The notes below the pieces were generated by a model. The model did no database searches, was not told the DNA's origin, and saw only the letters and a list, made by a program, of their open reading frames with translations. Source: Lichenibacterium dinghuense (GTDB lineage Bacteria > Pseudomonadota > Alphaproteobacteria > Rhizobiales > Beijerinckiaceae). Taken from it: a stretch of 64,000 bases of DNA. Position 1 is the first letter of the stretch, and every line of letters starts with the position of its first letter. Location: positions 1,674,501-1,738,500 of the forward strand of contig NZ_JAJLMN010000001.1 in NCBI RefSeq assembly GCF_021730615.1, written 5' to 3'. The position numbers and the translations under genes were made by a program. This document shows, in pieces, positions 26,241 through 43,867 of this stretch.

Positions 26241-26263
26241 ACATCTGCTCCTTCTGGGCGAAG
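26241..26263. other. attL, left attachment site
   Basis: A 23-bp sequence starting ACATCTGCTCC and ending TGGGCGAAG, identical to 47444-47466. It is a displaced copy of the 3' end of the manganese catalase gene. Read on the minus strand, the bases to its left would give CAG ATG TAG, which is the same last two codons plus a TAG stop: the probable pre-insertion end of the catalase gene. Confidence 0.9.
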
Positions 26264-26311
26264 GGCGGAACGCACTGTTTTCCTTGGTGAAATTCGATGT
26301 CCGGCGCGCAT

Positions 26312-26324
26312 TTGTGTACCGGTC
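26312..26324. promoter_or_regulatory. Candidate left integrase arm site
   Basis: TTGTGTACCGGTC occurs here and at 47383-47395 in the same orientation. This copy is exactly 48 bp inside attL; the other is exactly 48 bp inside attR. In the excised circle they would flank the attP core symmetrically, as integrase or excisionase arm sites do. Confidence 0.6.
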
Positions 26325-27037
26325 ATCGGCACCAGCGCCATGCGACGGCCTGCCGCACAGCTTGTTCCGAGATAATTCTATTTATGATCGAAAACCAAAG
26401 TCGATATGGAATTTAGAGCGCCTGCTTTCTAAGTTTCCATAGTAGATAAGCATAATCATCTTTGATATTCTCTTTCTCCTGTATTGCTGAAGCCATCGGA
26501 TTGATAATAGCAGTCACGCCAGCCGCGCCAGCTACCGCAGTTATAGCTGCAGCAGTTCCGGAATAGTAACCAGCCCCGAGCGTCGCCATCACGCTTGTGA
26601 CTGTTGCCATTCCAGCTTTTAATCGACCCAGATTTGCTGCCGCATTGAACTTTCTCTCGATTCGAGAAATCTTTGGACGTACCACATCATGATATATCTC
26701 AGTCGCCTTAGAGCCTTGCCTATGCGCATCACGAATGGCTAATTTAAAGTTCACTCGAAACTCATCGATTATATCTTTTTCATCGATAATGATACGTGTG
26801 ATATCTTCGATTGTGACGTTCTTCAAAACAGGAACAGCTACATCAAATAATGTTTGTCGAAATTCGTCATCAAGGGACGAATCTATGATGAGTGCCTTTT
26901 CTGAGGGTTCACGCTGTCCAAACGTGGTGATTTCCCATACCTCACGCGGTGCGTGATGCGGGACGTCGAGCATCCCCCAATTCTTTGGCGTTTTGCCCGG
27001 ATCAGAGTCCAAATACATCAGGAAACGAAACGGTTTA

Positions 27038-28170
27038 TAGCCCGATTCCGTGAGGATGCGGGGTTGACGGCGGGGTCGCTTTCGATTCGGTTTTGTGTCG
27101 ATGATCAAGCGCCATTTCCTGAGCAAGGACGATCGTGCGCGGCTGACGGGCATCGCGCGGGATGGGCTTGAGGAGCATCGGGTCGCCCGGCGCGCCAACG
27201 CGATCCTTTTGTTGGACAAGGGCTGGAGTTGCGAGCAGGTTTCGGAGGCTCTCCTCCTGGACGACGACACGATCCGGAGCTGGTTCAAGGTTTATCGCGA
27301 GGGCGGCGTACCGGCTCTGGCGCGCTTCGACTTGGCGGGCGGGCACCGCGCCTTGACGGTGGAGCAGCTCACGGCCCTGAAAGCCTGGGCCACGGAGGCG
27401 CTTCCGGCGTCGACACGCGCGATCGGTCATCACATCCGGACGACGTATGGCATGTCGTACACGCGATCCGGTTTGATCAAGCTGATGGCGGCGCTGGATT
27501 TTGTCTGGCGCAAGCCTGACCTTGTGCCCTCGCATCTCGACCTTGCGGCGCAGGAAGCGTTCATCGAGCAGCATGAGCGGCTCCGCAACGGCCTTGGGGC
27601 CGACGAAGCGATCGTCTACGGCGATGCCGTTCACCCGACCCATCAGACGCGACCGGCGGGCGTGTGGATGCCGCGTGGCGCCGACGTCGCGGTTCCTGCG
27701 GCGTCGGGCCGTGATCGCATGAACATCCATGGTGTGATCGACCTGGAGACCGGCGCGACGCGGATGAAGGAAGTGCTTTCGGTCGATGCGCAAAGCACGA
27801 TCGAGCTTCTGACCTCCATCGAGAACGCCTACACGACGATGCGTCGGATCCATGTCTATCTGGACAACGCCCGCTATCATCATGCCCGTGCTGTTCAGGA
27901 TTGGATGAGGCAACCGGGACGGCGCATCGTGCTTCACTTCATCCCGAGTTACTGCCCTCACCTCAACCCGATCGAGCGGCTCTGGGGCGTGATGCACCAG
28001 AACGTCACCCACAACCGGTACTATGCCACATTCAAGGACTTCGCGGAGGCGATCCTGACATTCCTCAAGGAAACGGTCCCGAAGCACTTCAGTCGCTTCT
28101 CATCCCGAATCACCGATAACTTCCGCATCCGAGACCCAAAGGATTCTCGGGTCGTCGCGTCGTAGATGTA
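27038..28170 (+). mobile_element. IS630-family insertion sequence
   Basis: About 1133 bp, flanked by TA at 27036-27037 and 28171-28172, the standard IS630 target duplication. The ends were placed by the criterion that excision restores the reading frame of the interrupted gene; both junctions read TATA, so a shift of two bases is possible. Terminal similarity is weak: both ends contain CCCGA...TC...GGATGCGG. It encodes one transposase on the plus strand. Confidence 0.8.
27095..28165 (+). CDS. IS630-family transposase
   Basis: A 356-residue single-frame transposase. The N-terminal half has a helix-turn-helix (LTGIARDGLEEHRVARRANAILLLDKGWSCEQVSEALLLDDDTIRSW). The DDE catalytic core is intact: Asp in VYGDAVH, Asp in VYLDNARYHHA and Glu in HLNPIERLWGVMH. 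The start is GTG 27095 or ATG 27101. Coding sequence appears undamaged, so it may still be active. Confidence 0.9.
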   Translation: MSMIKRHFLSKDDRARLTGIARDGLEEHRVARRANAILLLDKGWSCEQVSEALLLDDDTIRSWFKVYREGGVPALARFDLAGGHRALTVEQLTALKAWATEALPASTRAIGHHIRTTYGMSYTRSGLIKLMAALDFVWRKPDLVPSHLDLAAQEAFIEQHERLRNGLGADEAIVYGDAVHPTHQTRPAGVWMPRGADVAVPAASGRDRMNIHGVIDLETGATRMKEVLSVDAQSTIELLTSIENAYTTMRRIHVYLDNARYHHARAVQDWMRQPGRRIVLHFIPSYCPHLNPIERLWGVMHQNVTHNRYYATFKDFAEAILTFLKETVPKHFSRFSSRITDNFRIRDPKDSRVVAS

Positions 28171-28653
28171 TAGGTAGCAACCACCCCTCATGAATAAATG
28201 GCGACACCTCTTTCATGAGGTCGTCCACAACACTTCCCGAGTGCAAAGCAAACGCCGGTCGAATTAGGCCTTGTTCACATGCCTCCATAAAGTGTTTCGG
28301 AGCATTCGCAGGAATGGTTATGTCAATTTTTTCCTCACCATCATCCCTAAGAAAGCCAACCTTCTTGGGCCATATCAGAGACATGTTAGGGGATGCCGGC
28401 CCTTCCATCATGGAAAGATCATGCAGCAAAATGCTCGCCTTAATTTTATCAAGGTACTCAGCGTCTGAACCCAGACGAATAACAGATTTCAATTTAGAGA
28501 TATCGTTCTGTACCGCATGAAACGCCTTGAAATTGTCGCTGTAGTGGCTAACTATTTGGTCCGGTTCATTTCGTGATATCTTGCCAAGAGCCTCGAAAAT
28601 TTCCGACATTGAACCACCCCCAGGACTCCATTTAACATATAGGTCTACAAGCC

Positions 28654-28869
28654 ATGCCGACCACTATGCAGACATGTCCTCCCTTGGACGGAACCCGCGT
28701 CTTGTTCCTCAACGTCGACCACGACGGCGTCACCGCGGATGGCGAGCGCTTTGACGTCGATCCCGTGGTCTACCGTGCTCACGCCCGTATCGAGGATGTG
28801 GTGATCCGCTTCCCCGATGGAAAGCTGAAGCTCGTGCAGCGGGTGACACCAGCGCGGCAGCTCGTTTGA
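28654..28869 (+). CDS. Small hypothetical protein
   Basis: A 71-residue soluble protein (starts MPTTMQTCPPLDGTRVLFLNV) made mainly of predicted beta strands: VLFLNVDHDGVTADGERFDV and EDVVIRFPDGKLKLVQRV. An intact frame with a plausible start lies just upstream of the divergent-strand split gene. No family is recognised. Confidence 0.5.
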   Translation: MPTTMQTCPPLDGTRVLFLNVDHDGVTADGERFDVDPVVYRAHARIEDVVIRFPDGKLKLVQRVTPARQLV

Positions 28870-28995
28870 ACTTCATCCCGTTTCAGTCTATACTTTCTCT
28901 GTCGCCGCTCCAGCGACTCCGGCGTTGAACATTCCGCCGGCACCTTGCCCCCGATACTGTCGAGCGTTGCTCCGGGTCGGGGGCCTTCTTCATGG

Positions 28996-29784
28996 TCACT
29001 CCACCACGGCCCCACGGCGCTTCATGCTGATCATCTGTCCCCCGCGTTGGACAGATCGCACCTCCGCCACCAATCTGAGACGCGCCCTGGCCCGGCCAAC
29101 GGTTGTCGGGCTGCACTTCATCTGTCTCGCGATGTCCCGGTCAGCACGAGACGGGTCGGCTTTCAAGACGTCGTCGAGCGTCGACTCAGAGCCATCGATA
29201 GGGCGGGAGTGCCATTCGCGGCTCAGCGAACGCAGACCGTCGATCAAACGGCTCATGTTGTCGCGATCCGAACCGCGTAGCTTTCCACGATCGTTGATCG
29301 CGCTCGCGTGATTCAACAGCTCTTGTATCCGCTGTTCAACGGTTTTGCGCTTGAGCACGACGGGCTTCGATGAAGCACGGCCGCCAGCTATGTCGTTCGG
29401 CGCAAGCGAGACTCCATCGGCCGGCTTCGATCTGTCCACAGTCTGAACAGATGCTTTCTCCTCTGTCATTCTGGCGAGCGTGGCGGCGGCAGTATGCTGC
29501 GCGCGTTCGTCGGCGAGGATGCCGTTAATCCTGTGCGCGATGTTGTACCCAGCCCAGAAGTATGACTTCTGACGTTTCTGGAACGGCGAGCGTGCCTGAT
29601 CTTCAGCGGTCAATGGGACGTCGGGCATCATCCGCCCCACCTTGACGAGGTCGTGCGGCGCGATGCGCTTGCCGTTCACCACGATCGCGGGACGCTGGCC
29701 CGTCCTCCGCGTTTCCGCCAACGCCTCCAACATGGTGCCGAATAATCCACGCAGGTCATCGCCGTCGAAGATCAGATCGCCCAT
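28996..29784 (-). CDS. Putative DNA-binding protein with C-terminal helix-turn-helix
   Basis: A 262-residue protein from the ATG at 29784, chosen because GGAGAG lies 4 nt upstream. (The frame stays open to an ATG at 29862, adding a CPICG motif, but that stretch overlaps two inverted repeats that look like operators.) The C-terminal region DADPSRADRDIARQMKCSPTTVGRARARL-like segment resembles an HTH of replication or partition regulators. Three ATCTGTCC-type inverted repeats lie upstream of and inside the gene, suggesting autoregulation or partition-site binding. The specific role is unknown. Confidence 0.6.
   Translation of the reverse strand: MGDLIFDGDDLRGLFGTMLEALAETRRTGQRPAIVVNGKRIAPHDLVKVGRMMPDVPLTAEDQARSPFQKRQKSYFWAGYNIAHRINGILADERAQHTAAATLARMTEEKASVQTVDRSKPADGVSLAPNDIAGGRASSKPVVLKRKTVEQRIQELLNHASAINDRGKLRGSDRDNMSRLIDGLRSLSREWHSRPIDGSESTLDDVLKADPSRADRDIARQMKCSPTTVGRARARLRLVAEVRSVQRGGQMISMKRRGAVVE
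29033..29056. repeat. ATCTGTCC inverted repeat, copy 1 (inside HTH gene)
   Basis: ATCTGTCC (29033-29040) and its exact complement GGACAGAT (29049-29056) are separated by 8 bp. The same arms recur at 29430-29452 and 29792-29814. Confidence 0.6.
29430..29452. repeat. ATCTGTCC inverted repeat, copy 2 (inside HTH gene)
   Basis: ATCTGTCC (29430-29437) and GAACAGAT (29445-29452), 7 of 8 arm positions paired, with a 7-bp spacer. Confidence 0.5.
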
Positions 29785-29791
29785 CGCCCTC

Positions 29792-29845
29792 TCCTGTCCA
29801 CATATGGGACAGATGGCGAACGCCGGATCAGTCCACAAGGTGGAC
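29792..29845. promoter_or_regulatory. Operator-like inverted repeats upstream of HTH gene
   Basis: TCCTGTCC (29792-29799) pairs with GGACAGAT (29807-29814) across 7 bp, the third copy of the motif seen inside the gene. A second, perfect repeat GTCCAC-AAG-GTGGAC lies at 29831-29845. Both are immediately upstream of the preferred start at 29784, where an autoregulatory site would be expected. Confidence 0.55.
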
Positions 29846-29908
29846 ACATGAGGATTGTCCATACGGGCCGCCCTTGACCCATGAGGAACAAAACCGGAAC
29901 ATGCGCCG

Positions 29909-30211
29909 ATGCGCTTGTCGGCTTATCCCTACGTTGTGGTCCGCATCAGGTGCCGGAACTGCCCGCGCGCCGGCTCTTACAAATTGGCGAGGCTGGCCGA
30001 GAAATTTGGCGCGGAGATCGAGATCGCCGAGTTGGTGATGAAGCTCTCCGCCGACTGCCCGAACCGCTCGATCAAACGACACAAGGGAGAGCATCCCCGC
30101 TGCGGCGCGCACCTCCCCGACGTCGCGGGCTTGCCGGAACCCGAGCCGCCACCAGCGGTCCCACCAGCGCCAGCGTTGCGGGTCGTGGGAGGTGGGCGTG
30201 ACCGATCGTGA
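29909..30211 (+). CDS. Small zinc-ribbon-like protein
   Basis: A 100-residue protein with a Cys pattern suggesting a zinc site: RIRCRNCPRAG near residue 15, SADCPNRS near 50 and PRCGAHLPD near 65, followed by a proline-rich tail. Proteins of this layout (RCRNC...KLARLAEKFGA...L...LSADCP) are common as uncharacterised genes in alphaproteobacterial mobile elements, recalled from memory. It is divergent from the HTH gene. Confidence 0.65.
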   Translation: MRLSAYPYVVVRIRCRNCPRAGSYKLARLAEKFGAEIEIAELVMKLSADCPNRSIKRHKGEHPRCGAHLPDVAGLPEPEPPPAVPPAPALRVVGGGRDRS

Positions 30212-30327
30212 TCGTCCGACAAGCGGGATCGACAAAATCAGATTGACCTTATGTTAATGGCTGTTCATCATTGTCACTAGCGGTTCGAAGAAGCTTCATG
30301 AGCGTCGACCGAACGGGAGGATGAATA

Positions 30328-30531
30328 ATGCGTGCGCTCGGTCCCGCCGCAGTTGCTTCCGCCGCGCTTTGGGCATCACTTGCGTGGTGCTTCGTCGCTG
30401 CTCGCACTGTAATCGGATGCGACCATATCCACCTATGCGCGAGAGAGTTCGGTTTCTACTTGCTCTGTATTGATATCGCCTTCATGGCCGCGCTCGTTTG
30501 GCATGATCGGATCAAGCCTGACAATGGCTGA
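30328..30531 (+). CDS. Small membrane protein
   Basis: A 67-residue protein with two hydrophobic helices (AAVASAALWASLAWCFVAA and FGFYLLCIDIAFMAALVW) separated by a short loop with two Cys (GCDHIHLCAREF). AACGGGAGGATGAATA precedes the ATG, a strong ribosome site. No family is recognised; small membrane proteins are common in prophage accessory regions. Confidence 0.55.
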   Translation: MRALGPAAVASAALWASLAWCFVAARTVIGCDHIHLCAREFGFYLLCIDIAFMAALVWHDRIKPDNG

Positions 30532-30533
30532 CG

Positions 30534-30722
30534 CTATAGCCAATGAACAATGGCGATCACGCCCTTAGTTATGAGCCAAAGTAGAAATACGGACCAGCCG
30601 ATCGTCAGTGATACGATCAGGGTCACGCCGAGGATAAACCCAGAGGTCTTGAGCGATCTCGGTAGACGGCCACGGTTCCGAACTGAGGTCATTTGTGTCA
30701 TCTCGGCACCGCCCCGCTTCAC
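30534..30722 (-). CDS. Small membrane protein
   Basis: A 62-residue protein with a basic N-terminus (RNRGRLPRSLK) and a C-terminal hydrophobic hairpin (SGFILGVTLIVSLTIGWSVFLLWLITKGVIAIVHW). A second ATG in frame at 30701 may be the real start. It is convergent with the preceding small membrane gene, with a 2-bp gap. Confidence 0.5.
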   Translation of the reverse strand: MKRGGAEMTQMTSVRNRGRLPRSLKTSGFILGVTLIVSLTIGWSVFLLWLITKGVIAIVHWL

Positions 30723-30840
30723 TCTCGCCGCGGTTGCAACTCTCGGTACGATACTCTTGTTTCCGTGATCGCTTTTGTAGACTTCGATTCGATGATGGTT
30801 AATGCGACCCCGTGGCCGTGATCACACGCCACCGCCCGTC

Positions 30841-31011
30841 GTCCGCACCTTCCTGTCCGTTGACGTAGGATCGACCTCTATCCGTTGGAGCCTGGTTATC
30901 GTCCGCTAGGATTATGTCCGCTGATCAGTGTGTCCGTTGATTGATTCCGACCCTTACGGACATGCTTTTCGGGCCATCGGATACTGACCGTTAGAGCATA
31001 CCTTAGCGGAC
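30841..31011. repeat. Iteron-like array of GTCCGYTRR motifs
   Basis: Direct copies or near-copies of GTCCGTTGA/GTCCGCTGA lie at 30855, 30881, 30901, 30916, 30932 and 30986, with an inverted copy (TTAGCGGAC) at 31003-31011, spaced about 15-50 bp apart. The 30723-31218 stretch has no convincing gene. Such clustered short repeats are typical of protein-binding arrays at origins or complex operators; which protein binds is unknown. Confidence 0.45.
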
Positions 31012-31053
31012 GCGCAAAAACGCATGGGTCGGCGCTGGGCTGGGTTCGTGACC

Positions 31054-31172
31054 GTCTCGGCGTGCGTTTGTCTCGTATGGATTTAGACCCGCACCGTCCG
31101 GTGTCTCGGAAGTCCCAAACCGGCCCATATGAGACGCGAAATCTGTCTCATCGGATCGTCTCGCTCAGGTAT
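31054..31172. repeat. Cluster of GTCTCG/CGAGAC motifs
   Basis: GTCTC(G/A) or its complement occurs six times in about 120 bp. Two copies form a longer inverted repeat: GTCTCGTATGG at 31070-31080 and CCATATGAGAC at 31125-31135 (10 of 11 paired). The cluster lies in the non-coding region beside the preceding motif array and just past the 3' end of the small HTH gene at 31219. Confidence 0.4.
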
Positions 31173-31218
31173 ACCGATAAGAGTCTGCGCCGAACGCATG
31201 GCTTAGGAATTGACCGGC

Positions 31219-31443
31219 TCAGCGACGGGAAGCGATGGCGCCGGGTGGGCCGTGACGGAGAAGCAGGCGCCAAACCTGCATTGAGGCCCACCGACCGCCG
31301 CGCAAGGCTGGCACGCCACGTGCGTTCAGCGCGTCCGCAATTTCCTGTAACGTCGTCGCTCCGCTCGCTCTCGCCTTTTCGATCTCGGGCAGCGCCGAAT
31401 GCGCCCACGCCCGTGCCTCCGCAACCGTGATGCGCCGATTCAT
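31219..31443 (-). CDS. Small recombinase-associated HTH-like protein
   Basis: A 74-residue protein whose core TLQEIADALNARGVPALRGGRWASMQVWRLLLR matches the DNA-binding HTH segment found in the C-terminal part of serine recombinases and in free-standing small proteins. No catalytic domain is present, so it cannot itself be a recombinase. It may be a DNA-binding accessory factor of the element. Confidence 0.65.
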   Translation of the reverse strand: MNRRITVAEARAWAHSALPEIEKARASGATTLQEIADALNARGVPALRGGRWASMQVWRLLLRHGPPGAIASRR

Positions 31444-31623
31444 CGTCCTGTTCCCATCCCCTGGTTGTCAGTATCGACATACCGGTCGCGGGTTGTGTGG
31501 TCTAGGTGGTCGTTTCAATCGGCGGCATGGGTTGTGCCACCAGCGTCACTCCGTAGCCATAGCTACACAATGAGATGAGGTGGAGCACGTCGACACGATC
31601 TACGCGCGCACTACATCGCCTGC

Positions 31624-31752
31624 ATGATCATCGGCACCAAGCCGCGACCCAGGAACACCAGCGCCACCACCGCCACCCTGCTCGTGCTGACCTTCGTGTT
31701 GTCGCTCATGGTGGCGATCGGCATCGCCGTCGCGGTGATCATCGCGTTCTAG
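31624..31752 (+). CDS. Single-pass membrane micro-protein (42 aa)
   Basis: A 42-codon frame from ATG 31624 to TAG 31750-31752: a short basic N-terminus (MIIGTKPRPRNTSATTA) followed by one long hydrophobic helix (LLVLTFVLSLMVAIGIAVAVIIAF). The sharp split between charged and hydrophobic parts is hard to obtain by chance, but there is no homology evidence. Confidence 0.4.
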   Translation: MIIGTKPRPRNTSATTATLLVLTFVLSLMVAIGIAVAVIIAF

Positions 31753-32422
31753 GACATCATCCAGAATTGATGGCGGCGTGCGCCTCAGTCCGCGTCGAGC
31801 AGCACGGCGTGGTGGCCGTGAAAGGGAAGGCCGGCGTTGGGCAGTGCTAGATGAACGCGGGCGCGCGAAACGCACGAAGGCGCGGAAAGTTCCGAGGGGG
31901 GGGTCGTTTTTTTGTGGCGGAAGGGTGGCGGGTGACGTCGAGCCCCTTTTCAAGTCAGACTCTCCCGCGAGCCTTGTACCTGGATTCCACTTTTGAATGA
32001 TAATTTCCAGAGTTAACGCTATCTGAAATAGTGCGAGCAAGACAAAAGTGGTTTTCGGAGGCCGTCGACCCTCTCCGACGGCATCAACCTCGGGCGCGCA
32101 GCAACAAAAGGGCTTTAATCCCTTGTAGCTCTAACTCTTGCAATCGTGCAAATGGATCAAATCTGGACGTTACTGATCGGTAACATCAGTATCGACACGG
32201 ATTTTGAGCCGCCGTTGCAGGTTCTTCGGGTCGGTGATAAGGAACTTATCGGGAACATTGTCCCGCCACGAAACCCTCACCCCTTGCCGGGGGCGAGGTT
32301 CGCGCGGTGAAGTCGGTATTCAAGGAACGTCAGACCCCCTTGATATCGGAATCATCCCTCTCCTGCAACACCTGTTGCGGGCTCGGGAACGCGCGGCCTC
32401 GTTAGATTTGAACGATTGCCCG
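31753..32422. other. Non-coding control region before the replicator gene
   Basis: About 670 bp with no convincing gene. It holds a run of eight G followed shortly by seven T (31895-31913), an inverted repeat AAGGG-N7-CCCTT near 32108-32124, and overlapping palindromes at 32169-32188. These sit upstream of the replicator gene on its strand, so promoter and control sites for it are likely here. Confidence 0.5.
32169..32190. promoter_or_regulatory. Overlapping palindromes upstream of the replicator gene
   Basis: GTTACTGATCGGTAAC (32169-32184) is a palindrome with one mismatched pair, and it overlaps ACTGAT-N7-ATCAGT (32172-32190), a second inverted repeat sharing its bases. Two mutually overlapping symmetric sites about 230 bp before the gene suggest a switch-like operator; binding proteins are unknown. 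Confidence 0.45.
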
Positions 32423-33991
32423 ATGTCCGGTTTCCACGACTACGCCGACCCACTCGCCGACCATTTCTCCCGAGCTAACCCCGCGGCGACGCGGATTCAG
32501 CCGACCACGCCCAACACGGCAAGGCCGAGCTACCGCCCTGCCCCGACTCCGCCCCGCCCGCCGTTGAAGCGCGACCCGTCACCGGGGTCCGTCCCTATGC
32601 CGGCCGGGTTGTCGTTTTCCGTCGCGCTCCGTCGCGTCGCGCTCGCCGCCGGCATGACGCAGGAAGAGATCGACGACGTGATGGTGCGGCTCCGGACCAA
32701 GGAAGCGGGTGAGCTGCGAACCCCGCGCGAGTGGGGATCGATCGCCAGCACGGCCATCATGTCGGCCATGTCGGCGCACCGCATTGGCACCAAGCCTCCG
32801 AAGACCACCCCCGAGCCTGCCGTCGTCGACATCGAGCCCGAAGCCGCGCCCGCCGTTGCGGTGGAAGAGCCGGATTGGTCGGGTGAGTGGGACGGCCCGC
32901 TCAACATCGTGCCCGAGGTGCTGGTGACGGTGCAGCCTGAGCCGATCGTCGCCGACGAGGACCACGCCCCCGAGATTGAGATGATGGAGACTCCGAAGCC
33001 GGCCGAGCAGCCTATTGCGGCGCCCGCCGCTGAACGTGGTGTTGCTGCTACGTCGAAGCGGAACCCCGCGCGGAAGCGATCCGACCCGTCCACTCTGACC
33101 ACGAGCCCCGGCATCAGGGCCGACAGGAAGGTGGTGTTCCTGCGCGTGGTCGCTGCCGATGAGACGCTGAGCAAAAGCGCGGTGCGTGTCGCCATCCCAT
33201 TGTTCGACCGGATCAACGCCGAGGTCGGGCACAGCTTCATATCCATGAACCGGCTCGGCAAGGAAGCGGCCATGGGCTGGCGATCGGTTCAAAGGGCGAT
33301 CAACGAACTAGAGGACGCGGGATATATCGCCGTCGACCGCATCGAGGGCGAGGCCCATCACATCGCGATCCGCCGCTCCAAGTTCGAAGGCGCGAAGCTG
33401 AACGGGGACCAGAAGACGGCCTCGCGGGAGTCGGGTCGGGGCAAGGTCGAAGGTGACACCCCTGCCAAAACTGACAGGGGTTCGGCCAAGCGCGACGACG
33501 TCGGAGAGGGTGCGGATATCCCCCCCACCCCTGCCAAAACTGACAGGGGTACTCCTGCCAAAACTGACAGGGGTCCCCTGTCAGAACTGGCACCCGTACT
33601 CAGTGACCGGGCTGTGATGAAATCCAGTGAAAAGGAAAACGTGGAAAACGAGGCTGCTGACGCAACCCCGGTTCGGGTGCGGACGGGTTTCGATCGGGAT
33701 TGGTTGACCTTCAAGGATGCCTACCCGGCGTATGTCGATGACCAGTGGCGCCCCCTGTTCATGCGGGTGCGCTCGGATGGCTGGAGCCTTGACCAGCTCC
33801 TAGAAGGGATCGAACACGTCCGGTCGACGATGTGCGAGGGCCAGGTCTTCCACAACGTAGCGGCCTTCCTCGGCCGAGAGATGTGGGCCGACGCCGATCC
33901 CCACATGAAGCCGGAACACCACGAACACGAGGATGTGCCGATGGGGCTGGACTCGTTCGTTGACTTGGATTCGGCATCCATCCCGTTCTGA
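32423..33991 (+). CDS. Phage lambda O-like replication initiator
   Basis: A 522-residue protein from ATG 32423 (MSGFHDYADP). Layout: a Pro/Ala-rich N-terminal region, a winged-helix domain at about residues 230-315 (RADRKVVFLRVVAADETLSKSAVRVAIPLFDRINAEVGHSFISMNRLGKEAAMGWRSVQRAINELEDAGYIAVDRIEG), a low-complexity linker encoded by iteron DNA (TPAKTDRG repeats), and a C-terminal helical domain (WLTFKDAYPAYVD...ALFMRV-type helper-interaction region). This order, DNA-binding domain, in-gene iterons, C-terminal loader-binding domain, is that of lambda O. Function is inferred from layout, not from a clear family hit. Confidence 0.68.
   Translation: MSGFHDYADPLADHFSRANPAATRIQPTTPNTARPSYRPAPTPPRPPLKRDPSPGSVPMPAGLSFSVALRRVALAAGMTQEEIDDVMVRLRTKEAGELRTPREWGSIASTAIMSAMSAHRIGTKPPKTTPEPAVVDIEPEAAPAVAVEEPDWSGEWDGPLNIVPEVLVTVQPEPIVADEDHAPEIEMMETPKPAEQPIAAPAAERGVAATSKRNPARKRSDPSTLTTSPGIRADRKVVFLRVVAADETLSKSAVRVAIPLFDRINAEVGHSFISMNRLGKEAAMGWRSVQRAINELEDAGYIAVDRIEGEAHHIAIRRSKFEGAKLNGDQKTASRESGRGKVEGDTPAKTDRGSAKRDDVGEGADIPPTPAKTDRGTPAKTDRGPLSELAPVLSDRAVMKSSEKENVENEAADATPVRVRTGFDRDWLTFKDAYPAYVDDQWRPLFMRVRSDGWSLDQLLEGIEHVRSTMCEGQVFHNVAAFLGREMWADADPHMKPEHHEHEDVPMGLDSFVDLDSASIPF
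33459..33596. repeat. Four iterons inside the replicator gene: candidate origin of replication
   Basis: Four 22-bp copies: 33459-33480, 33528-33549, 33552-33573 (direct) and 33575-33596 (inverted). Each is itself an inverted repeat with CCCCTG and CAGGGG ends around a CCAAAACTGA centre (third copy starts CTCCTG; fourth reads as CGGGTG on the complementary strand). Downstream, 33616-33655 is rich in A on one strand (GATGAAATCC...GAAAAGGAAAACG). Lambda ori has the same form: palindromic iterons with an AAAA centre inside gene O followed by an A-rich tract. Confidence 0.7.
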
Positions 33992-34059
33992 TCCGTGAGG
34001 AAGAAAGATGTGGCGAGGGGTGTTTGTGTTCTCCCCTCGTCATGGTAAATAGAACCCGA

Positions 34060-35483
34060 GTAACTACCCACGGGGTGCGCAGCTTGGCTGAGCGCCGTCA
34101 GGCGCCGATGGTGCCCAGCACGGTGCTGAACGTGCCGGCGCCGGAGGTCAGGCGCGCGGTGGCCACCACGGTTCGCACGGCGGCCTCGCCCTTGGCGGAC
34201 CACATGGCGCGGTAGCCGTTGGTGTTCTTGCGCTGGATCACCGCTGGGCGGAGGTCGCGCTCGCAGGCGTTGTTCGTGGCCTCGACCCGTCCGGGGAAGG
34301 CCGCGAAGGTCAGGAGCTGGTCGCGGGCGCGACGCATGCGGTTCTGGATGTCGCGCGCCAGGTCGCAGGTGGCCGGGGCGGCGAGGATGTCGTCGAGGGA
34401 GCGCTCCAACTTGCGGCGCTTGGTGGCCACCGTCGAGGGCGCCGCTGTGGTGACGGTGCGCGCCAGCGCGAAGGCTTTGTCGAGCCACAGCTTGAGCCGC
34501 AGGGCGAGGATGTCGTTCCCGGCTTCGAGCGCATAGGCGACGTCGCGGGCGAGGTGGGCCAGGCAGGTCTGTTGCCGGTCGGCATGGCCCTGTTGGGCGG
34601 AGTAGCGATCCGACAGCCACACGGCGGGCCGGTGCCCGTCCATGATCTCGTGCACCACGCAGGCGCCCCGCGTCGGGGCGGCGTGGTGCACCACCGCTTC
34701 CTCGCAGCGGAAGACCCAATGGTACGAGTTCGTGCCCTCGATGCGCACGCCCGTCTCGTCGGACGCCACAACGGTGGCGCGTCGCAACACCGACAGGGCC
34801 GCGTCGCGCCCGGCCGCGAAGCGCGTCTCGGCCCGGCGCAGCATGTTGGTGAGCCCGCCCTGGCTGATGCGCAGGCCGAACAGGTCGAACAGGGCCTTTT
34901 GCAGCCGCTCGTAGGACAGGGCCTGGAAGGTCTTCAGGTACACGGCCGTGGCGTGCAGGCGCAGCCCGAACGGCGAAGCCGCAGCCTCCGCCGGTCTCGG
35001 CGCCGCCACGCGGGCCCGGCATCCCGGGCACACCACGGCGAGCCGCCGGTGCTGCTCGACGACGGGCTTCACCTCCGGCAGTTCGATGTGCTCGTGCACG
35101 CTGACCGTCTCGACCGGCAGCTCGGCCGACAGCGCCAGCCCGCAGTCGGGGCACTCGGTCGGACGGTGATCGACGACCGTGTCGGGATCTTCGGCGACGA
35201 GGCGGTTATGGCCCTCGTGGCCGGGCTTCGCACCACCGGGGCGGGACTGTTCGCGCCGCTCCTTGCGGTCGGTGGAGGGCGGCTTGGACGAGGTGCGCGA
35301 CGTCTTGGCCGGGCGCTGCAGCTTCAGCACCAGTTCGATCAGTTCCTCCTTGCTCAGGCGCTCGAGATCACCGCGGCTCATGCCATCAGGGAATCAGCCT
35401 TCATCACGCCGCGCAAGCCCTCGTTGCACTTCGACCCGCCCCACCCGGCACCGGTCGCCTCACACCACCCCGTGGGTAGATAC
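34060..35483 (-). mobile_element. IS66-family insertion sequence
   Basis: A 1424-bp element with terminal inverted repeats GTAACTACCCACGGGGTG (left) and GTATCTACCCACGGGGTG (right, complementary strand), beginning with the GTA typical of IS66. The 8-bp target duplication GAACCCGA is at 34052-34059 and 35484-35491. It carries a single transposase gene. It sits between the replicator gene and the small-gene train without deleting sequence. Confidence 0.9.
34098..35381 (-). CDS. IS66-family transposase
   Basis: A 427-residue IS66 transposase. It has an N-terminal LSKEELIELVLKLQ helix, a zinc-ribbon-like CPDCGLAL...CPGCRARV pair, and the DDE core: VASDETGVRIEG, HEIMDGHRPAVWLSDRYSAQQGHADRQQTCLAHLARDVAYALE, and EATNNACERDLRP with the catalytic Glu. 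IS66 elements often need small accessory genes; none is present here, as in single-gene members of the family. Confidence 0.92.
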   Translation of the reverse strand: MSRGDLERLSKEELIELVLKLQRPAKTSRTSSKPPSTDRKERREQSRPGGAKPGHEGHNRLVAEDPDTVVDHRPTECPDCGLALSAELPVETVSVHEHIELPEVKPVVEQHRRLAVVCPGCRARVAAPRPAEAAASPFGLRLHATAVYLKTFQALSYERLQKALFDLFGLRISQGGLTNMLRRAETRFAAGRDAALSVLRRATVVASDETGVRIEGTNSYHWVFRCEEAVVHHAAPTRGACVVHEIMDGHRPAVWLSDRYSAQQGHADRQQTCLAHLARDVAYALEAGNDILALRLKLWLDKAFALARTVTTAAPSTVATKRRKLERSLDDILAAPATCDLARDIQNRMRRARDQLLTFAAFPGRVEATNNACERDLRPAVIQRKNTNGYRAMWSAKGEAAVRTVVATARLTSGAGTFSTVLGTIGA

Positions 35484-35532
35484 GAACCCGAGCCGACGCG
35501 ATCGGCCGGGACCTTTTCATCCCGAGTTTATT

Positions 35533-36000
35533 ATGACCGCCTATTCTCCCTTACCGGAAAAGATCCTGCCCCGCGTCGGGCAGTTGCTGCGGCTGCTCGA
35601 CTCAGATCAGGACCACGAAACCCTTGCGGCCTGCCGGGCACTTCGCAAGACGCTGAAGGGAGCGAAGGTCGACTTGCACGATCTTGCTTCGGCCATCGAG
35701 GAGCCGAAGCCGATCAAGGTCGTATACCGGGACCGCCCTGTGGAGCCGCCGCCACCGCCCCCACCACCGCAGCGGCCCGTCGACAACCCTTATGTCGGAT
35801 GGAGCGCCAGCCTCGGCGAACGCGCCACCGAAGCGCTGCGCCGTGCCCTCGCCGATGCCAGCACCAGTGAATGGGAGCGTGGATTCATCACAAGCGTCCT
35901 GCCGGAATTCGAAAAGAAGCGGGGCCGCCTCACACTGAAACAGTCCGAAATCGTGAAACGGATCATGCTTCGAATGGAGAAGGCGGAGGCCGCCGCGTGA
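35533..36000 (+). CDS. Prophage-type hypothetical protein
   Basis: A 155-residue protein. The N-terminal half (LPEKILPRVGQLLRLLDSDQDHETLAACRALRKTLKGAKVDLHDLASAIE) and the C-terminal half (SEWERGFITSVLPEFEKKRGRLTLKQSEIVKRIMLRME) are separated by a run of prolines. Proteins with both halves are frequent in alphaproteobacterial prophages and plasmids with no known function (recalled). It ends in GTGA, overlapping the next start. Confidence 0.6.
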   Translation: MTAYSPLPEKILPRVGQLLRLLDSDQDHETLAACRALRKTLKGAKVDLHDLASAIEEPKPIKVVYRDRPVEPPPPPPPPQRPVDNPYVGWSASLGERATEALRRALADASTSEWERGFITSVLPEFEKKRGRLTLKQSEIVKRIMLRMEKAEAAA

Positions 36001-36338
36001 AACTGTCCAACCCATCGATCCGGTCGGGCGCCGCGCATGACCTGTTTCGCAGACATCAACGGCGCTTGCTCCCCTCCGAAACCCTTGCCGATCTCCACGG
36101 CGATGCCGTCATGGCAGCGATCCGGGCCGCTGAAGCGCGCAAAGCTTTGGGTGTGTTCCAGGCCATCGCCGAGCGCGATCGTGCTGCCGGTCGGCCGATG
36201 TCACTCCTGCTTGGGGATCGAATCCGAACAGCTCGGGCCGCCCTCGCCGATGCTGAAGCTGCCCTCGGCGTTGCACAGAGCACCGTGAGGATAAAGCGGC
36301 ACGCCGAGGTGGTCGACGATGACAAAGGGGTGAACTGA
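35997..36338 (+). CDS. Small helical protein of the element
   Basis: A 113-residue mostly helical protein starting at GTG 35997 inside the preceding stop (GTGA). The stretch AEARKALGVFQAIAERDRAAGRPMSLLLGDRIRTARAALADAEAALGVAQ resembles the LGLLDRDRATGREPSDLLVERHRAAVVELDAAETAFG segment of the next gene, so the two are probably diverged copies of one module. Function unknown. Confidence 0.6.
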   Translation: MKLSNPSIRSGAAHDLFRRHQRRLLPSETLADLHGDAVMAAIRAAEARKALGVFQAIAERDRAAGRPMSLLLGDRIRTARAALADAEAALGVAQSTVRIKRHAEVVDDDKGVN

Positions 36339-36340
36339 CC

Positions 36341-36601
36341 ATGCGCCGTCCGAAATCCAGGAATCCACGCATCCCGCCGAGGGAGCTGAATTTGATTGCC
36401 GCGACCTTCGCTGGCGCCGACCTTGTTCAAGCACGTCGCCGCGTAGCAACTCTCCTTGGTCTCCTTGATCGCGATCGAGCTACCGGCCGAGAACCCTCCG
36501 ACCTCCTCGTCGAGCGGCATCGTGCGGCGGTGGTCGAACTCGATGCGGCTGAAACGGCGTTCGGTGCGGCAACGTCGAGAATGGTTTCGACCTTAAGGTA
36601 A
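36341..36601 (+). CDS. Small helical protein, paralogue-like to the preceding gene
   Basis: An 86-residue helical protein, 2 bp after the previous stop. It shares with that protein the order: Ala/Arg helix, a turn with RDRA-x-GR-x-x-S-x-LL-x-x-R, and a second Ala-rich helix. This points to gene duplication inside the element. Function unknown. Confidence 0.6.
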   Translation: MRRPKSRNPRIPPRELNLIAATFAGADLVQARRRVATLLGLLDRDRATGREPSDLLVERHRAAVVELDAAETAFGAATSRMVSTLR

Positions 36602-36934
36602 TGCCGGGCCGCCCATTTATGTGATGGTCAATCGCTATAGGGTGAGAGAATAGACCTTAATCGCATATATGATCGGCAATCATCTTGCCGCGTAATGCTA
36701 TTCTGGACTTGACGCGAAGCTTTTCGGGTGGTAGTGTTCTGATATGCTATTCGCCGGAAAGCCGTTATAAGCATAGCTTCACACAATTGATTGAAATCAA
36801 TCGCGGGAAATGCCCGACGATCGAGGCGTTCAGCGTCACCGAATGGGATGTTTTCCCTCGGAAAAGCGGTCTCACGTGGCCTTGGGTTCGACCTGTCCAC
36901 GTCGTTTTCACACAAAACAGAAAATCACATTATC
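36602..36934. other. AT-rich gap before the tiny-gene operon
   Basis: 333 bp with no convincing gene: open frames on both strands overlap each other and match nothing. The composition is much more AT-rich than the genes on either side (for example GTGATGGTCAATCGCTATAG and CGTAATGCTATTCTGGAC), so it probably contains the promoter of the operon that begins at 36935. Confidence 0.5.
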
Positions 36935-37150
36935 ATGGAAACAAAGCGCAAGCTCCCGCCGCCTCGCAAGAAGAAGACGATGGTGGGGCAAATTTACACA
37001 AGCCTCCCCGAAGACGTTCTCGCCGTAGTCGATCGTCATGCGAAGATCGAAATGCTCGATCGCGCAGCGGTCATCCGGAAAATGGTGATCTTTGGCCTGG
37101 AAAGTAAGGGTTTCTGGTGCCGGCCGGCCGCCGACGTGAAGGGCATGTGA
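36935..37150 (+). CDS. Ribbon-helix-helix-like small DNA-binding protein
   Basis: A 71-residue protein with a basic start (METKRKLPPPRKKK) and a CopG/Arc-like ribbon-helix-helix: strand VGQIYTSLPEDVLAVVDRHAKIEM followed by LDRAAVIRKMVIFGLES. It is the first gene of the tightly overlapping operon that leads to the tape-measure gene, so it may control that operon. The TGATG at 37148-37152 couples it to the next gene. Confidence 0.65.
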   Translation: METKRKLPPPRKKKTMVGQIYTSLPEDVLAVVDRHAKIEMLDRAAVIRKMVIFGLESKGFWCRPAADVKGM

Positions 37151-37392
37151 TGACGATTGTCGAGAACTTCAACACGCCCCTGCACCATCTCGCCGCACTT
37201 ATGGAGAAGGACTTCCCCGGCGAACCCGCTCCGCGATCGACAACTGTGTTTGATGCGCTTCTCGCTCTGGAAACCGCGCAGATCTTCAAGGTTGAGGCCG
37301 AGTTCTGCTTCGAAAGGGCGATCCGAGCCGTGGTGGATGCCGAGAACCGCCTCGAATTTGCGAAGAAGGCCAGCGCGAGCAATAATGTCTGA
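37150..37392 (+). CDS. Small hypothetical protein (operon member 2)
   Basis: An 80-residue helical protein (TPLHHLAALMEKDFPGEPAP, then FDALLALETAQIFKVEAEFCFERAIRAVVDAENRLEFAKKA). It begins at ATG 37150 overlapping the previous stop and overlaps the next start by 8 bp. No family recognised. Confidence 0.6.
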   Translation: MTIVENFNTPLHHLAALMEKDFPGEPAPRSTTVFDALLALETAQIFKVEAEFCFERAIRAVVDAENRLEFAKKASASNNV

Positions 37393-37642
37393 CCGTCGCA
37401 TCGAGTTTTTGCAGGGGCGCATCACCGCCCTCGAAGCATCCATCGCCGCACTGAAGGCCGAAGACGTCGCGCTGGATTCGCGTAAGTCTAACCTGAACCG
37501 CCTCCATCGCAACCTTTGGCAAGATAAATTGTGGTCGGCGGTGGTCCACCGTCAATCACGCATTCCGATCCTAATCCAGCACGCCGAGCGCGAAATCGAA
37601 CAATTCCGCGTTGACCTAGAACGATACCGCACATTCCATTGA
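37385..37642 (+). CDS. Small coiled-coil protein (operon member 3)
   Basis: An 85-residue protein with a clear heptad pattern (RIEFLQGRITALEASIAALKAEDVALDSRKSNLNRLHRNL) and a second helical stretch (ILIQHAEREIEQFRVDLERY). It overlaps both neighbours by a few bases. Probably a small scaffold- or partner-binding helix protein; function unknown. Confidence 0.6.
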   Translation: MSDRRIEFLQGRITALEASIAALKAEDVALDSRKSNLNRLHRNLWQDKLWSAVVHRQSRIPILIQHAEREIEQFRVDLERYRTFH

Positions 37643-37836
37643 GACTGAAATTGACCTCCGACGAAATCGAATTTGACGAACTGCTGCGCGCGTTGCGACG
37701 CAAGACCGAACAACGAGACGAAGCGCTTTCCGACCTCGCAAAGATCTATGCGGGAATGCGCGAGATCGAGGACCGGCTGAATACCCTCCTTCGGACCGGC
37801 ACCACTGCTGAATACATCCACGGATTCGAGGACTAA
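37639..37836 (+). CDS. Small coiled-coil protein (operon member 4)
   Basis: A 65-residue helical protein (IEFDELLRALRRKTEQRDEALSDLAKIYAGMREIEDRLNTLL) starting at TTG 37639 inside the preceding stop region (TTGA). The unusual start is supported by the overlap and by the following gene starting 2 bp after its stop. Function unknown. Confidence 0.5.
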   Translation: MRLKLTSDEIEFDELLRALRRKTEQRDEALSDLAKIYAGMREIEDRLNTLLRTGTTAEYIHGFED

Positions 37837-37838
37837 CG

Positions 37839-38132
37839 ATGTCCTTCAGCCGAGGTTGGCGCGCCCGTCGCGCCGCGTTCCAGCACCGTGCCGCTTTGGC
37901 AAAGCATGGTAGTTCTGAATACCGAGAATATTCTCAACGCCAGCGTGAAAACGAACGGCGGATGTTGCAGGGACTTCCCCCTCTCACGGATGAGCCCGAA
38001 CAGCAACGCGAGACGCCGGAGGAGGCCAAGGCACGCCGCCACCGCGACGCGATCTTGCTTCTGACCACCATTGAAGACATCGAGGCCGAAGCTGAAGCGG
38101 CCGTAATCATTCCGAAGAACGAATTGAACTGA
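37839..38132 (+). CDS. Small charged protein (operon member 5)
   Basis: A 97-residue, very charged protein: basic N-terminal part (SRGWRARRAAFQHRAALAKHGSSEYREYSQRQRENERRM) and an acidic C-terminal part (IEDIEAEAEAAVIIP). It lies 2 bp from both neighbouring genes. No family recognised. Confidence 0.58.
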   Translation: MSFSRGWRARRAAFQHRAALAKHGSSEYREYSQRQRENERRMLQGLPPLTDEPEQQRETPEEAKARRHRDAILLLTTIEDIEAEAEAAVIIPKNELN

Positions 38133-38134
38133 CC

Positions 38135-38746
38135 ATGAACGATATTAAACCCGGTCCGCACGACCGCGTCATCACGCCGGACGCGAATGGAAACCTGCAC
38201 TTTCAGGCAGGGGACAATAAACGTCGCGCCGCAGCCCTCGCCGCCCGCCGTGCCGCCGATGCCGAATCCGCTGCCAAGCGCTTTTCGCCGGATGCGATGG
38301 ATGCGCGAGAGGTTAAGCTAGAACAGGCCGACCGCCAGCGTCGTCAAGGTGCCATCAATGATGCTCTCGCCGGTGTCAAGCGTGTGGAGAACTTACGTGA
38401 TGAGCTGACAAAGGACCGTGACGAGGCACGCGCCTCCGCGCGGAACCTTGTGGATATTGGAGAGGCTGGCGCCGCCCTGGCCGAAGCTGCGGTGTACGAC
38501 CGGAAGCTCAGTCAAGTCCCCGCCGCTCTCGATGCCGCCCTGTCCGCCGTTGCGGACGCCCGTGAAGCTCTCAAACGCTTCGACGCTTCCACTGCCGCTC
38601 GTGCCGCCGATCGTGCCGCCGCCGCGGAGAAGCGCAGGGCCAACGTCGAGCGCGAAGCCGCCGCCCGCGCCGCCGCGGAGGAAGTCTATCAGCGGCTCAT
38701 GGCCGAACCTCCCCCGAAGCCCGTCGCCGTGAGGAAGAAGCCATGA
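38135..38746 (+). CDS. Long alanine-rich coiled-coil protein (operon member 6)
   Basis: A 203-residue protein, almost entirely Ala/Arg/Glu-rich helix (AALAARRAADAESAAKRF; RVENLRDELTKDRDEARASARNLVDIGEAGAALAEAAVYD; the C-terminal third AARAADRAAAAEKRRANVEREAAARAAAEEVYQRL). Elongated helices like this occur in tail chaperones and scaffolds encoded just before the tape-measure gene, but no homology was recognised. ATG 38743 of the next gene overlaps its stop. Confidence 0.6.
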   Translation: MNDIKPGPHDRVITPDANGNLHFQAGDNKRRAAALAARRAADAESAAKRFSPDAMDAREVKLEQADRQRRQGAINDALAGVKRVENLRDELTKDRDEARASARNLVDIGEAGAALAEAAVYDRKLSQVPAALDAALSAVADAREALKRFDASTAARAADRAAAAEKRRANVEREAAARAAAEEVYQRLMAEPPPKPVAVRKKP

Positions 38747-39006
38747 CCAGCACCGTCGATCAACTCGCTGCCGCCCTGATTGAGCGTGCCGACGCTCTTC
38801 CTGAAACTGCACCGCTCCTGGCGAAGATGATCCTCGACGCCGCGCCTGATGGGGACCGCCTCGCCGCTTTGGATCTCGCCCGCACTGCCTACCCGTCAAT
38901 GTTCAAGGCGAAGGTGGCCGAAGCCGCCTCCACCGTGCCCGTCGAGGAGTCCGTTTCGCACATGCCGGTGACGATGCGAGTGCTGCGTGAGGCTCGCGGC
39001 GGATGA
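38743..39006 (+). CDS. Small hypothetical protein before the tape-measure gene (operon member 7)
   Basis: An 87-residue helical protein (VDQLAAALIERADALPETAPLLAKMILDAAPDGDRLAALDLARTAYPSMFKAKVAEAA). It overlaps the genes on both sides by 4 bp (ATGA). The place directly before the tape-measure gene is usually filled by tail assembly chaperones; the fit is positional only. Confidence 0.58.
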   Translation: MTSTVDQLAAALIERADALPETAPLLAKMILDAAPDGDRLAALDLARTAYPSMFKAKVAEAASTVPVEESVSHMPVTMRVLREARGG

Positions 39007-42000
39007 GCGACGAAACACTCTCGCTTGGGATGGACCTTGTCGCGCGTGACGAGGCCAGCCCTGCAATTAACGCCGTCCGCGCGTCGCTCGATGAGTTGCG
39101 GAAGTCCGCCCTGGCGATCGGACGGACGATCAAGCGGTCTCTGAACACCGAGTTCGTCCAGGCCATGAACGCCGCCACCAGCGCGGCCACGAAGCTCGGG
39201 GCTGATACGACGGCGTCGCTGAACCGGGTCGCGACGTCGATCCGGGCCGACACCGCCGCCATGGACGCCTTCACGGTTTCCGTCCGCGCCGCTGCCGCTG
39301 CCCAGCGCGATCTATCCCGTGGTGCAAGCCGTGGTGGTCGCGGTGGTGGTGGTGGCAGTCGACCGCCTGCACCTCCCCGTGGCCTGCCCGACCTCCGCGA
39401 GATCAGGCGCCGATGGACTCTGCGCGAGCGCTCCGCCCGTGCCGAGGTGGCCGAGATCCAGGCCAGCGCGAAGGCCGAAGCCGTCCGCCAGAAGGCTGTG
39501 CTCGACGGTGTTGCTCGTCAATGGCGTCTCCGTCAGAACAGCGAATGCGCCGAGTTGCGGCACCTGAGCGCCGTCCGCCGCGAGCGCACCGCTATGCGCC
39601 GCGAGATGAACAAGCGAGTCGGTGAGGTCTATCATCACGGCCGACATGCTATCAGAAGTTTAAACCACCCGGCCTTCGAATCCGCGGGGTTTTGGCTGAG
39701 TGCTGGCGCAGCGTTCGGAGTCGAAGCCGGAAAGCATCTCATCGAAGCTGCCAAGCAACTCGACACGGTGACGACGCGCTATAAGATGCAGCCCGGCGTT
39801 TCTGCTTCCGATGCGGCAAAGGTCCGTGAGGAATCACTGCGCGAGGGCATCCGTCTCGGCGTCGATCCCGCTGAAGTCGCGAAGCTTCGATTGCAGGGGT
39901 TAAAGGATGGTCTTCAGCCTGACGTCGCGAAGATCCTGCCGTCCAGTATCCAGGCCGCGATTCAGACGATGGGTGGAAGTCTCGACAAAGACGGCGATGA
40001 ACTTGCGAAAGCCATTCGTGAGGGTTCAACGGTCGGATGGGTGAAGAATGCCGCCGATGCGCGGTCCATGATGAATGAGATTGCTGGCCTGTCGACCTTC
40101 AACGGCAACTCGCCTGAAAAGATGCAACAGTTCCTGGCATCAGGTGGCATCGGTCGAGGAAAAGAACTCGGCTGGTCCAAGCAACAGACGATGGCGTTCG
40201 GCGCTGCTTTGAACGGCTCCGGTGAAAGAACAGGTTTCGGCTCAGCTCGTTTGATGGCGCAACTGCCGGAAATCCAAGCTGGCATCGTCGACAAGTATCG
40301 TCGGGCGGCTCGCTCGCATGAAAACTCCGAAGAACGCCGCGCTGTTCTGTCCGGTCCTCGTAAGTTGGGCTACAGCGGCCCATTCGAGATGCAACAGGCA
40401 TTCCGAACTCCCGAAGGTGTCGTGAGCTTTCTGAGCCGTCTACAAGGTCTCGATGAGAAGACGCGCGCTCAAATCGAGAAGGGATATGGCCTCGGGCCGC
40501 AGTTCAACGCTGTGTCGGCCGAAATGGGTGCGAACCACGGCGAGCGTTACCATCACGCTTTGAAACGCGAGAACGAACTGAGCGGTCAAGACGCCTCGAA
40601 CGATGTTCTGAGTCAGAACAGCAAGACGTGGTCGAAGTCCATCGAGTTCATGCTTGACCAGCTCAAGGCTAGCACGTCGGCGGTGCAGGCCGAACTTGGC
40701 GACGTGATCAAAGATGATGTTTTGGAGCCGTTCACCGGCTGGTGGGTCAGCATCTCGAATGCGTTGCTTGACGGCGGGATGAAGCAGGATTTGCATCGTG
40801 CGATTCAGAGCTTTGTTCAAGGCTTGGGCTTCGACGATCTGACGGCAGCTCTAAACAGTCTGCGTGCCAGCGTCGGAACCTTCGACCTTTCCGGATTCCT
40901 GCTCGGTGTCGGCCAAGGTCTCCGAACCGTCACGGACAGCTTCGCCAGCATCGCGCATGTCCTCGGCTTTGCTGGTGACGGCTCGGCGCGGCAGCTTGGG
41001 AAGCTCGCGGCCGAACTGTTGGGCATGAGCGTCGCGCTCAGGATCGCGTCGCCGGTCATCACGCTCTTGTCTGGCATCGCCTCCGGCTTCATGGCGATCA
41101 AGGCCGCTGTTTCGGGCGTGTCAATCGCGTCCAAGTTCTTCAACCTGTCGACCGGGCTGAAGGCTCTGCTCGGCGTGGAAACCGCCGCCATGACCACGGG
41201 CTTGATCGGCCTCGCGGGCGCTCTGACGACCATCGGGGTTGCGGTTCAGGCATTACTCGACTTGGGCATCCTCAACAAGGTGACGCTGTTGCCGAAGGGC
41301 ACCTCGGCGCCAGCCCTCGACGAATGGCTTTGGGGCCGGACGCCGGACGGCAAGAGCGCCCGCCCTGCGTGGGTCGACCGCCTCACGGGCAATGCGCCAG
41401 CGGCCTCCCCTGCCCCCGTTGTCCCCCAAGGGGCTCCGAATCCTACAACGGAAACACCCGCCGACTACTGGCGGCGCAAGCGCGGGTTCCACCCATCGTC
41501 ATATGAAGGCGACGGGCAGTCGTGGCGGGACTTGATGACGCCAGCGAGTTGGAGCCCGGCCGATGCCAGCGAGACGACGCGCAGCGCCATCGTCGACACG
41601 GCACGCTCAACGGACCATATCCGGCAAGGAATCGACCGCGTGGCCGACCTCCTACATCGGGCTTCGTCGAATCCGCTGGCCGGCGTAGGTGGCGATGGTG
41701 ACGCTGGAGGATTCAGCTCGCGTTCCGGCGGTGCAAGCATCCGACACGGCCACCGCGGCGCGACCTTCGATGCCTCGCTTCCGAATATGCGCTACGGCCA
41801 CGGTGGGGGCGGAAGCTACCGGCGGACGCCTGGAAACCGCGCCCCGAGTGGTCACACCGATGCCGACGACGGGAGCAGTGGAGCGCCGAGCGATGGTTCT
41901 TCCATCGGTTGGACGGCCGCCATCCTTCGGAAGAAGGAAGGATTCATCGGTCACGCCGCATGGGATGTGAATCACTACCGGCTCGGGTACGGCTCCGACA

Positions 42001-42677: not shown

Positions 42678-42704
42678 AACTCTACCTACACTCGATTTGA
42701 TATC

Positions 42705-42732
42705 AGCCTCGGCTTCGGCCGGGGCTTTTTTT
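42705..42732 (+). terminator. Intrinsic terminator after the tape-measure gene
   Basis: AGCCTCGGC-TTCG-GCCGGGGCT followed by TTTTTTT is a strong hairpin plus T-run, ending the operon before the gpD-like gene. Its presence means the gpD gene may need its own promoter or readthrough. Confidence 0.85.
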
Positions 42733-42748
42733 ATGTCTGGATTAATCT

Positions 42749-43801: not shown

Positions 43802-43842
43802 CAGTCCTCCAGATTTGGATTGTCCCCTTTCGATCACTCAAC

Positions 43843-43867
43843 GGCTGTCCTTCGGGGCGGCCTTTTT
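43843..43867 (+). terminator. Intrinsic terminator after the gpD-like gene
   Basis: GGCTGTCC-TTCG-GGGCGGCC (two non-paired positions) followed by TTTTTC forms a UUCG-capped hairpin, 40 bp after the gpD stop and before the HNH-like gene. Confidence 0.7.

Follow-up and report, generated by a model that had tools for sequence, protein, structure and literature searches.

Lambdoid phages can carry the replication origin inside the gene of the initiator that acts on it. A review places iterons and an AT-rich tract within the λ O gene (PMC5043065), and a study of Stx-phage O proteins describes the same two elements within O (PMC7466680). Here, we analysed a 64,000 nucleotide stretch of Lichenibacterium dinghuense DNA (the window), in which a gene of 522 codons very probably both specifies a phage replication initiator of the O type and harbours the origin (Table 1). 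We read it in this way because of the matches of the protein to PHROG families, the layout of its domains, iterons that are unique in the genome, the repeats and the rise in AT content found in related genes, and the helicase-type genes that neighbour those relatives.

Table 1. Features of the initiator gene and of the surrounding prophage remnant, in window coordinates
Feature	Position	Strand	Remarks
O-like replication initiator gene	32423..33991	+	522 residues; open frame with PHROG and HTH_36 matches
N-terminal extension, residues 1-232	32423..33118	+	Mostly low confidence; helices at residues 65-120
Winged-helix DNA-binding domain, residues 233-320	33119..33382	+	Confidently modelled (AlphaFold2)
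Iteron 1	33459..33480	+	CCCCTGCCAAAACTGACAGGGG
Iteron 2	33528..33549	+	Same sequence as iteron 1
Iteron 3	33552..33573	+	22-mer with one change
Iteron 4	33575..33596		Degenerate; 16/22 against the consensus in either sense
A-rich, purine-rich tract, candidate unwinding element	33615..33656	+	74% purine, 57% AT
C-terminal helical domain	33683..33832	+	Confident part is residues 421-470
IS66-family element	34060..35483	-	Directly past the initiator gene; 18 bp ends 94% complementary
IS4/5-family transposase gene	44939..45751		Beside the truncated integrase, within 44769-47399
Tyrosine integrase	45807..47399	-	Catalytic domain truncated
Prophage remnant, 21.2 kb	26241..47466		23 bp perfect direct repeat at both ends

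Against PHROG 270, 'replication initiation protein', the window protein scores E 2.6e-9 (residues 244-497 against profile positions 40-255 of 383), in an alignment that spans the winged helix and the C-terminal region up to residue 497, and it also matches PHROGs 391, 345 and 678, 'replication initiation O-like'. A Pfam scan up to E 0.1 reported HTH_36 as the sole domain and did not return Phage_rep_O (PF04492), which λ O, run as a control, matches at 5.7e-36; the view of the first-pass annotation that this is not a standard O homologue is thus upheld. A sequence search of the PDB gave zero matches, and the structural matches of the winged helix were generic winged helices, including CodY/MarR-type regulators. 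In the AlphaFold2 model, block-mean pLDDT is 84-90 in the C-terminal domain and drops to 57-63 at residues 471-490, and the linker encoded over the iterons is modelled as disordered. Translation of 522 residues from position 32423 is plausible; no clear ribosome-binding site was seen upstream of it, and a TTG at 32204 is listed as an alternative start of the frame. For N-terminal residues 51-134 (84 aa), the sole match among 199 genomes of the family was the protein's own genome.

Four iterons of about 22 bp lie at 33459-33596, with the coordinates and spacing that the first-pass annotation had given, and the modelled layout agrees with its placement of them between the winged helix and the C-terminal helical domain. 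Their starts are 69, 24 and 23 bp apart, iterons 1 and 2 being separated by 47 bp. The inverted repeat CCCCTG...CAGGGG, which had been ascribed to every iteron, is perfect on both sides in iterons 1 and 2 only; iteron 3 begins CTCCTG and the degenerate iteron 4 reads CCCCTG...CACCCG. A description of the array as three direct copies and one inverted is weakly founded, since the unit is near-palindromic; iteron 4 agrees with the consensus at 16/22 in either sense, its best ungapped stretch being the inverted one (15/18, 83%). Dyad symmetry extends over 16 of the 22 positions of the 22-mer, a value equalled by 0.085% of 20,000 composition shuffles. When the 6.1 Mb genome was searched with the 18-mer core, allowing up to two mismatches, the three direct copies were the only matches and the reversed core, used as a control, had none, so the iterons are not a product of chance.

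The iterons are also constrained as DNA. Iterons 1 to 3 share a reading frame and each encode TPAKTDRG, with seven codons the same in all three copies (P = 3e-4 with genome codon use, and 3e-6 when codon use is taken from four genes of the island). Of the eight codons, five (CCT, AAA, ACT, AGG and GGT) have genomic shares of 2-6%, and the repeat coverage of the gene after the winged helix was equalled by 1 of 200 synonymous shuffles; the peptide alone is therefore insufficient to account for the iterons. Past them, the A-rich tract noted earlier is present: of its 42 nucleotides, 18 are A and 13 are G, and its A content ranks in the top 0.7% of the gene. With winged helix, intragenic iterons, purine-rich AT tract and C-terminal domain in this arrangement, the λ-O-like organization that had been proposed holds good.

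The idea that the core of this iteron is widely shared was rejected after inspection of fetched loci that bear it. A scan with CCTGNCAAAACTGNCAGG matched 26 stretches in viruses and at least 120 in genomes, 80 of the latter being fetched; by our estimate, about 120 matches to CCTGNCAAAACTGNCAGG would be expected by chance in the genomes (16 fixed bases, 257 Gb, both strands). None of the 106 fetched loci bearing the core had a winged-helix gene by HMM, and reading of 11 such loci revealed no initiator-like frames; a further approximate core copy (up to four mismatches) lay within 400 bp in 13 of the 106. On one viral contig (L060:7317-7475), several near-palindromic CTGTCAG..TGACAGG copies form a cluster, and the HMM found no winged-helix gene there.

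No close homologue of the whole protein was recovered from phage, plasmid, genome-contig or viral-contig collections, and a scan with the protein P0004 yielded zero relatives; within the family, 10 of 298 genomes gave matches, the window's own counted. Two of the ten, L012 and L013, were not retained as relatives: they match the N-terminal part alone, and their frames resemble unrelated proteins. A winged-helix HMM, trained on the window protein and seven of its relatives, was run over the loci from the homologue searches and identified 25 distinct genes; 24 of these (the window gene among them) had a testable linker. Over the winged helix, similarity to the relatives is distant (28-35%), and these relatives include no proven initiators.

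We counted recurring 9-mers in the 300 bp past the winged helix and compared them with synonymous-codon shuffles. Every one of the 23 distant homologues showed an excess of repeats at no more than 6 of 200 shuffles, with 21 at 1/200 or less and the remaining two at 3/200 and 6/200, so that the layout was general in the relatives tested; of the 95 genes taken as controls from the window's genome, 12 reached 5/100 or less and 6 reached 1/100 or less. Excess repeats were found at 0/200 shuffles in λ. Of 18 named phages, for five of which the HMM placed the winged helix poorly, 15 also gave 0/200; the others were Itty13 (4/200) and, without significance, LASTA (23/200) and RHph_TM3_3_3 (63/200). 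The suggestion of the first-pass annotation that the locus may represent a distinct replicator family is not supported, given these same-place repeats in homologues and named phages and the matches to PHROG 270 and three O-like PHROGs.

The repeat units differ mostly between genes, the alike pairs being L016/L210 and L041/L044, and their spacing is frequently 22-25 bp. In most relatives, as in λ, one DNA unit recurs within the gene in different frames or strands; selection on the peptide cannot produce such changes of frame. A different form occurs at L015:961-1761 (minus strand), where a 33 bp unit is repeated four times in frame past the winged helix. The DNA becomes richer in AT past the last iteron in 22 of 24 genes, including the window gene (mean +10%, Wilcoxon 3e-6). 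A survey of downstream genes covered 19 neighbourhoods of relatives; three of the seven downstream proteins tested match a phage DNA primase/helicase family, and of the 19 named phage regions that were fetched, 6 have a gene annotated as helicase, helicase loader, DnaC or DnaB next to the initiator or close by.

Many related phage initiator genes have a further element past the iterons, namely 11-13 bp GAACC[A/G]TC repeats that often change reading frame. Examples are found across loci L233-L312 (such as L301:1007-1864) and in phages MD8 (L353) and Galaxy (L403), and 12 of the 24 genes of the family set have at least two GAACC in the 85 bp around or after the last iteron. When viral contigs were scanned for GAACCATC-GAACCATC-GAACC, gaps of 3-7 being allowed, at least 120 stretches matched, and 80 loci were fetched. 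These held 89 matches, of which 43 lay in a frame with an upstream winged helix; the other 46 had no winged-helix frame by our criterion and many are simple-repeat proteins, and a few (for example, L273) may be initiators that the HMM missed. The reversed triple motif, as a control, matched 29 times in 24 stretches and never within a winged-helix gene, and the motif itself lay on the strand opposite to the winged-helix frame once, with a borderline score. Excess repeats at no more than 1/100 shuffles were seen in 39 of 42 distinct linkers from the motif loci, at a median distance of 108 bp. The commonest intervals between GAACC copies (n=104) were 11 bp (37), 12 bp (40) and 13 bp (14), which means that about half of the steps shift the reading frame. 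At least three GAACC directly follow the iterons in 9 of the 18 named phages (MD8, PotUPM1, PhiR49_2, PP9W2, Itty13, PseuP_222, Riah, LESphi3 and Galaxy), a count reached by 0-15 of 300 shuffles. Several of these are not independent, being close relatives found with motif-selected queries; Galaxy was found via the protein P0003, chosen without regard to the motif. Named phages with the array include ones of Pseudomonas and of Escherichia, as well as Galaxy, an Arthrobacter phage.

As evidence for an unwinding element, these observations are mixed. The triple motif was not enriched in 298 genomes of the family (5 matches, compared with 23 when the motif was reversed, three of the five being initiator genes already in the set) or in 385 genomes of the class (5 against 5). 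In the 24-gene set, 14 genes have at least two GAACC in 60 bp and 1 of the 14 beats synonymous shuffles at 5%. Among 34 distinct viral O-like genes selected by protein rather than by motif, 20 have GAACC copies at intervals of 11-14 bp, located at gene positions 328-420, and 32 have excess repeats at 1/100 or less; 0 of the 34 beat the GAACC shuffles at 5%. As synonymous shuffles were rarely or never beaten in these two samples, an EPxxEP peptide motif is a possible cause of their GAACC copies. The window gene has GAACC at 32718, 33061 and 33247 and none past the iterons, and the array is absent from both this gene and λ. A literature search covering few subscription papers did not find the array in print; in one paper, GAACC appears in oligonucleotides. 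This by-product of our analysis may be newer than the intragenic-origin layout itself. We suggest tentatively, at somewhat less than even chances, that many O-type initiator genes contain a composite origin, in which variable iterons are followed by a conserved unwinding array of 11-13 bp repeats, GAACC[A/G]TC on the coding strand, the window gene being a variant with an A-rich tract instead of that array. The array would be read by something less specific than the contacts of the initiator with its iterons, be it a host factor or a single-strand-binding face that is conserved.

The initiator gene is intact and the prophage around it is decayed. The 23 bp repeat, a putative att core, has copies at 26241-26263 and 47444-47466, the right one at the 3' end of a Mn-catalase gene. 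By eye, the frame at 44769-44951 resembles the C-terminal end that the integrase has lost. The integrase has plasmid relatives in Methylobacterium, Microvirga, Bradyrhizobium and similar genera, which agrees with the alphaproteobacterial setting given in the first-pass annotation. The IS66 copy has an 8 bp target duplication (GAACCCGA), and the island also contains an IS630-like transposase gene with a DDE_3 domain. Among the island proteins scanned, a subset of the frames, were a tail protein and a lysozyme-bearing one that weakly matches tape-measure proteins, and no terminase, capsid or helicase-loader gene was recognized; neither was a helicase loader or primase recognized adjoining the initiator gene. 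The initiator gene is followed by the IS66 copy, and the next rightward frame tested, 35296-35997, had no PHROG match. A 288-residue protein encoded at 28996-29862 on the minus strand, with a Cys motif near its N terminus and a weak HTH match towards the C terminus, had no Pfam match at 0.001 and is a possible prophage regulator.

By analogy with λ, we favour a mechanism in which the winged helix would bind the four near-palindromic iterons, probably as one dimer per iteron. The occupied array would bend the DNA and melt the adjoining A-rich tract, and the C-terminal domain, tethered through a flexible linker encoded by the iteron DNA, could then recruit the replicative helicase, either directly or via a loader. 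Weighing against the initiator reading are the distance of the relatives, the failure to recognize a loader adjoining the gene, the empty PDB sequence search, the generic structural matches, the degeneracy of iteron 4 and the 47 bp gap.

Were the protein an autoregulating winged-helix transcription factor and the repeats its operators, the structural likeness to CodY/MarR-type regulators would be explained. That reading is nevertheless very improbable, for the sites lie 1 kb past the start of the gene, as a tandem array with an A-rich tract behind it, the family models point to replication initiation, and the relatives adjoin primase/helicase, loader or DnaB genes. Slightly less credit still is due to the proposal that the repeats are a feature of the protein, a TPAKTDRG linker whose DNA identity is left over from recent duplication. 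Three copies do share a frame; iteron 4, however, encodes another peptide, rare codons are identical between copies, the unit is near-palindromic, and most relatives read their DNA unit in varying frames or strands.

An initiator with an intragenic origin is compatible with a module that was formerly an origin and is inactive in the present genome, and on this question we judge the chances to be even. The module may have ceased to work, given the broken integrase, the lack of a recognized loader or primase adjacent to it and the IS66 copy directly downstream. The position of an IS4/5-family transposase gene beside the truncated integrase, the presence of three transposases in 21 kb and the failure to recognize a terminase or capsid gene in the frames scanned all favour inactivity; on the other side, the initiator frame is unbroken and three of the iterons are preserved, features that would be expected to decay in the absence of selection.

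Overall, our work indicates that very divergent phage initiators, with iterons that mostly differ between genes, follow the λ plan of an origin within the initiator gene. It offers a simple computational route to origins in unstudied phages, by inspection of the DNA just past the winged helix. If the GAACC array were a true unwinding element, it would provide a short conserved DNA signal that marks phage origins and a lead to the factor that recognizes it.

Several known systems can be set beside the window gene. RepA_N plasmid initiators such as pSK41 RepA have an intragenic origin. The PDB entries 4pql, 4pt7 and 5kbj, which we take to be pSK41 RepA, have no sequence match to the window protein and share with it the winged-helix fold alone, a fold so common that the structural match does not show kinship. 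With PHROG 270 and the O-like PHROGs 391, 345 and 678, the protein shares matches over the winged helix and C-terminal region, and the gene shares the intragenic repeats of the relatives; it differs from the PHROG 270 group in its N-terminal extension, its own iteron sequence and the absence of a GAACC array. The O-like gene of Pseudomonas phage MD8 (NC_031091) likewise has a winged helix and intragenic repeats (0/200 shuffles) and is followed by a P-like loader gene, but has four GAACC repeats past its iterons, which the window gene lacks. λ O, a Phage_rep_O member of 299 residues, is shorter than the window protein with its N-terminal extension and has a P gene, whereas no P gene was recognized beside the window gene; the iteron sequences also differ (best ungapped overlap 8/18). 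Nevertheless, both genes place a DNA-binding domain (a winged helix in the window protein) ahead of the iterons and a C-terminal domain behind them, and both have four intragenic iterons with a C-rich arm, an A-tract and a G-rich arm, followed by a purine-rich AT tract, at similar spacings of 20, 24 and 23 in λ and 69, 24 and 23 in the window.
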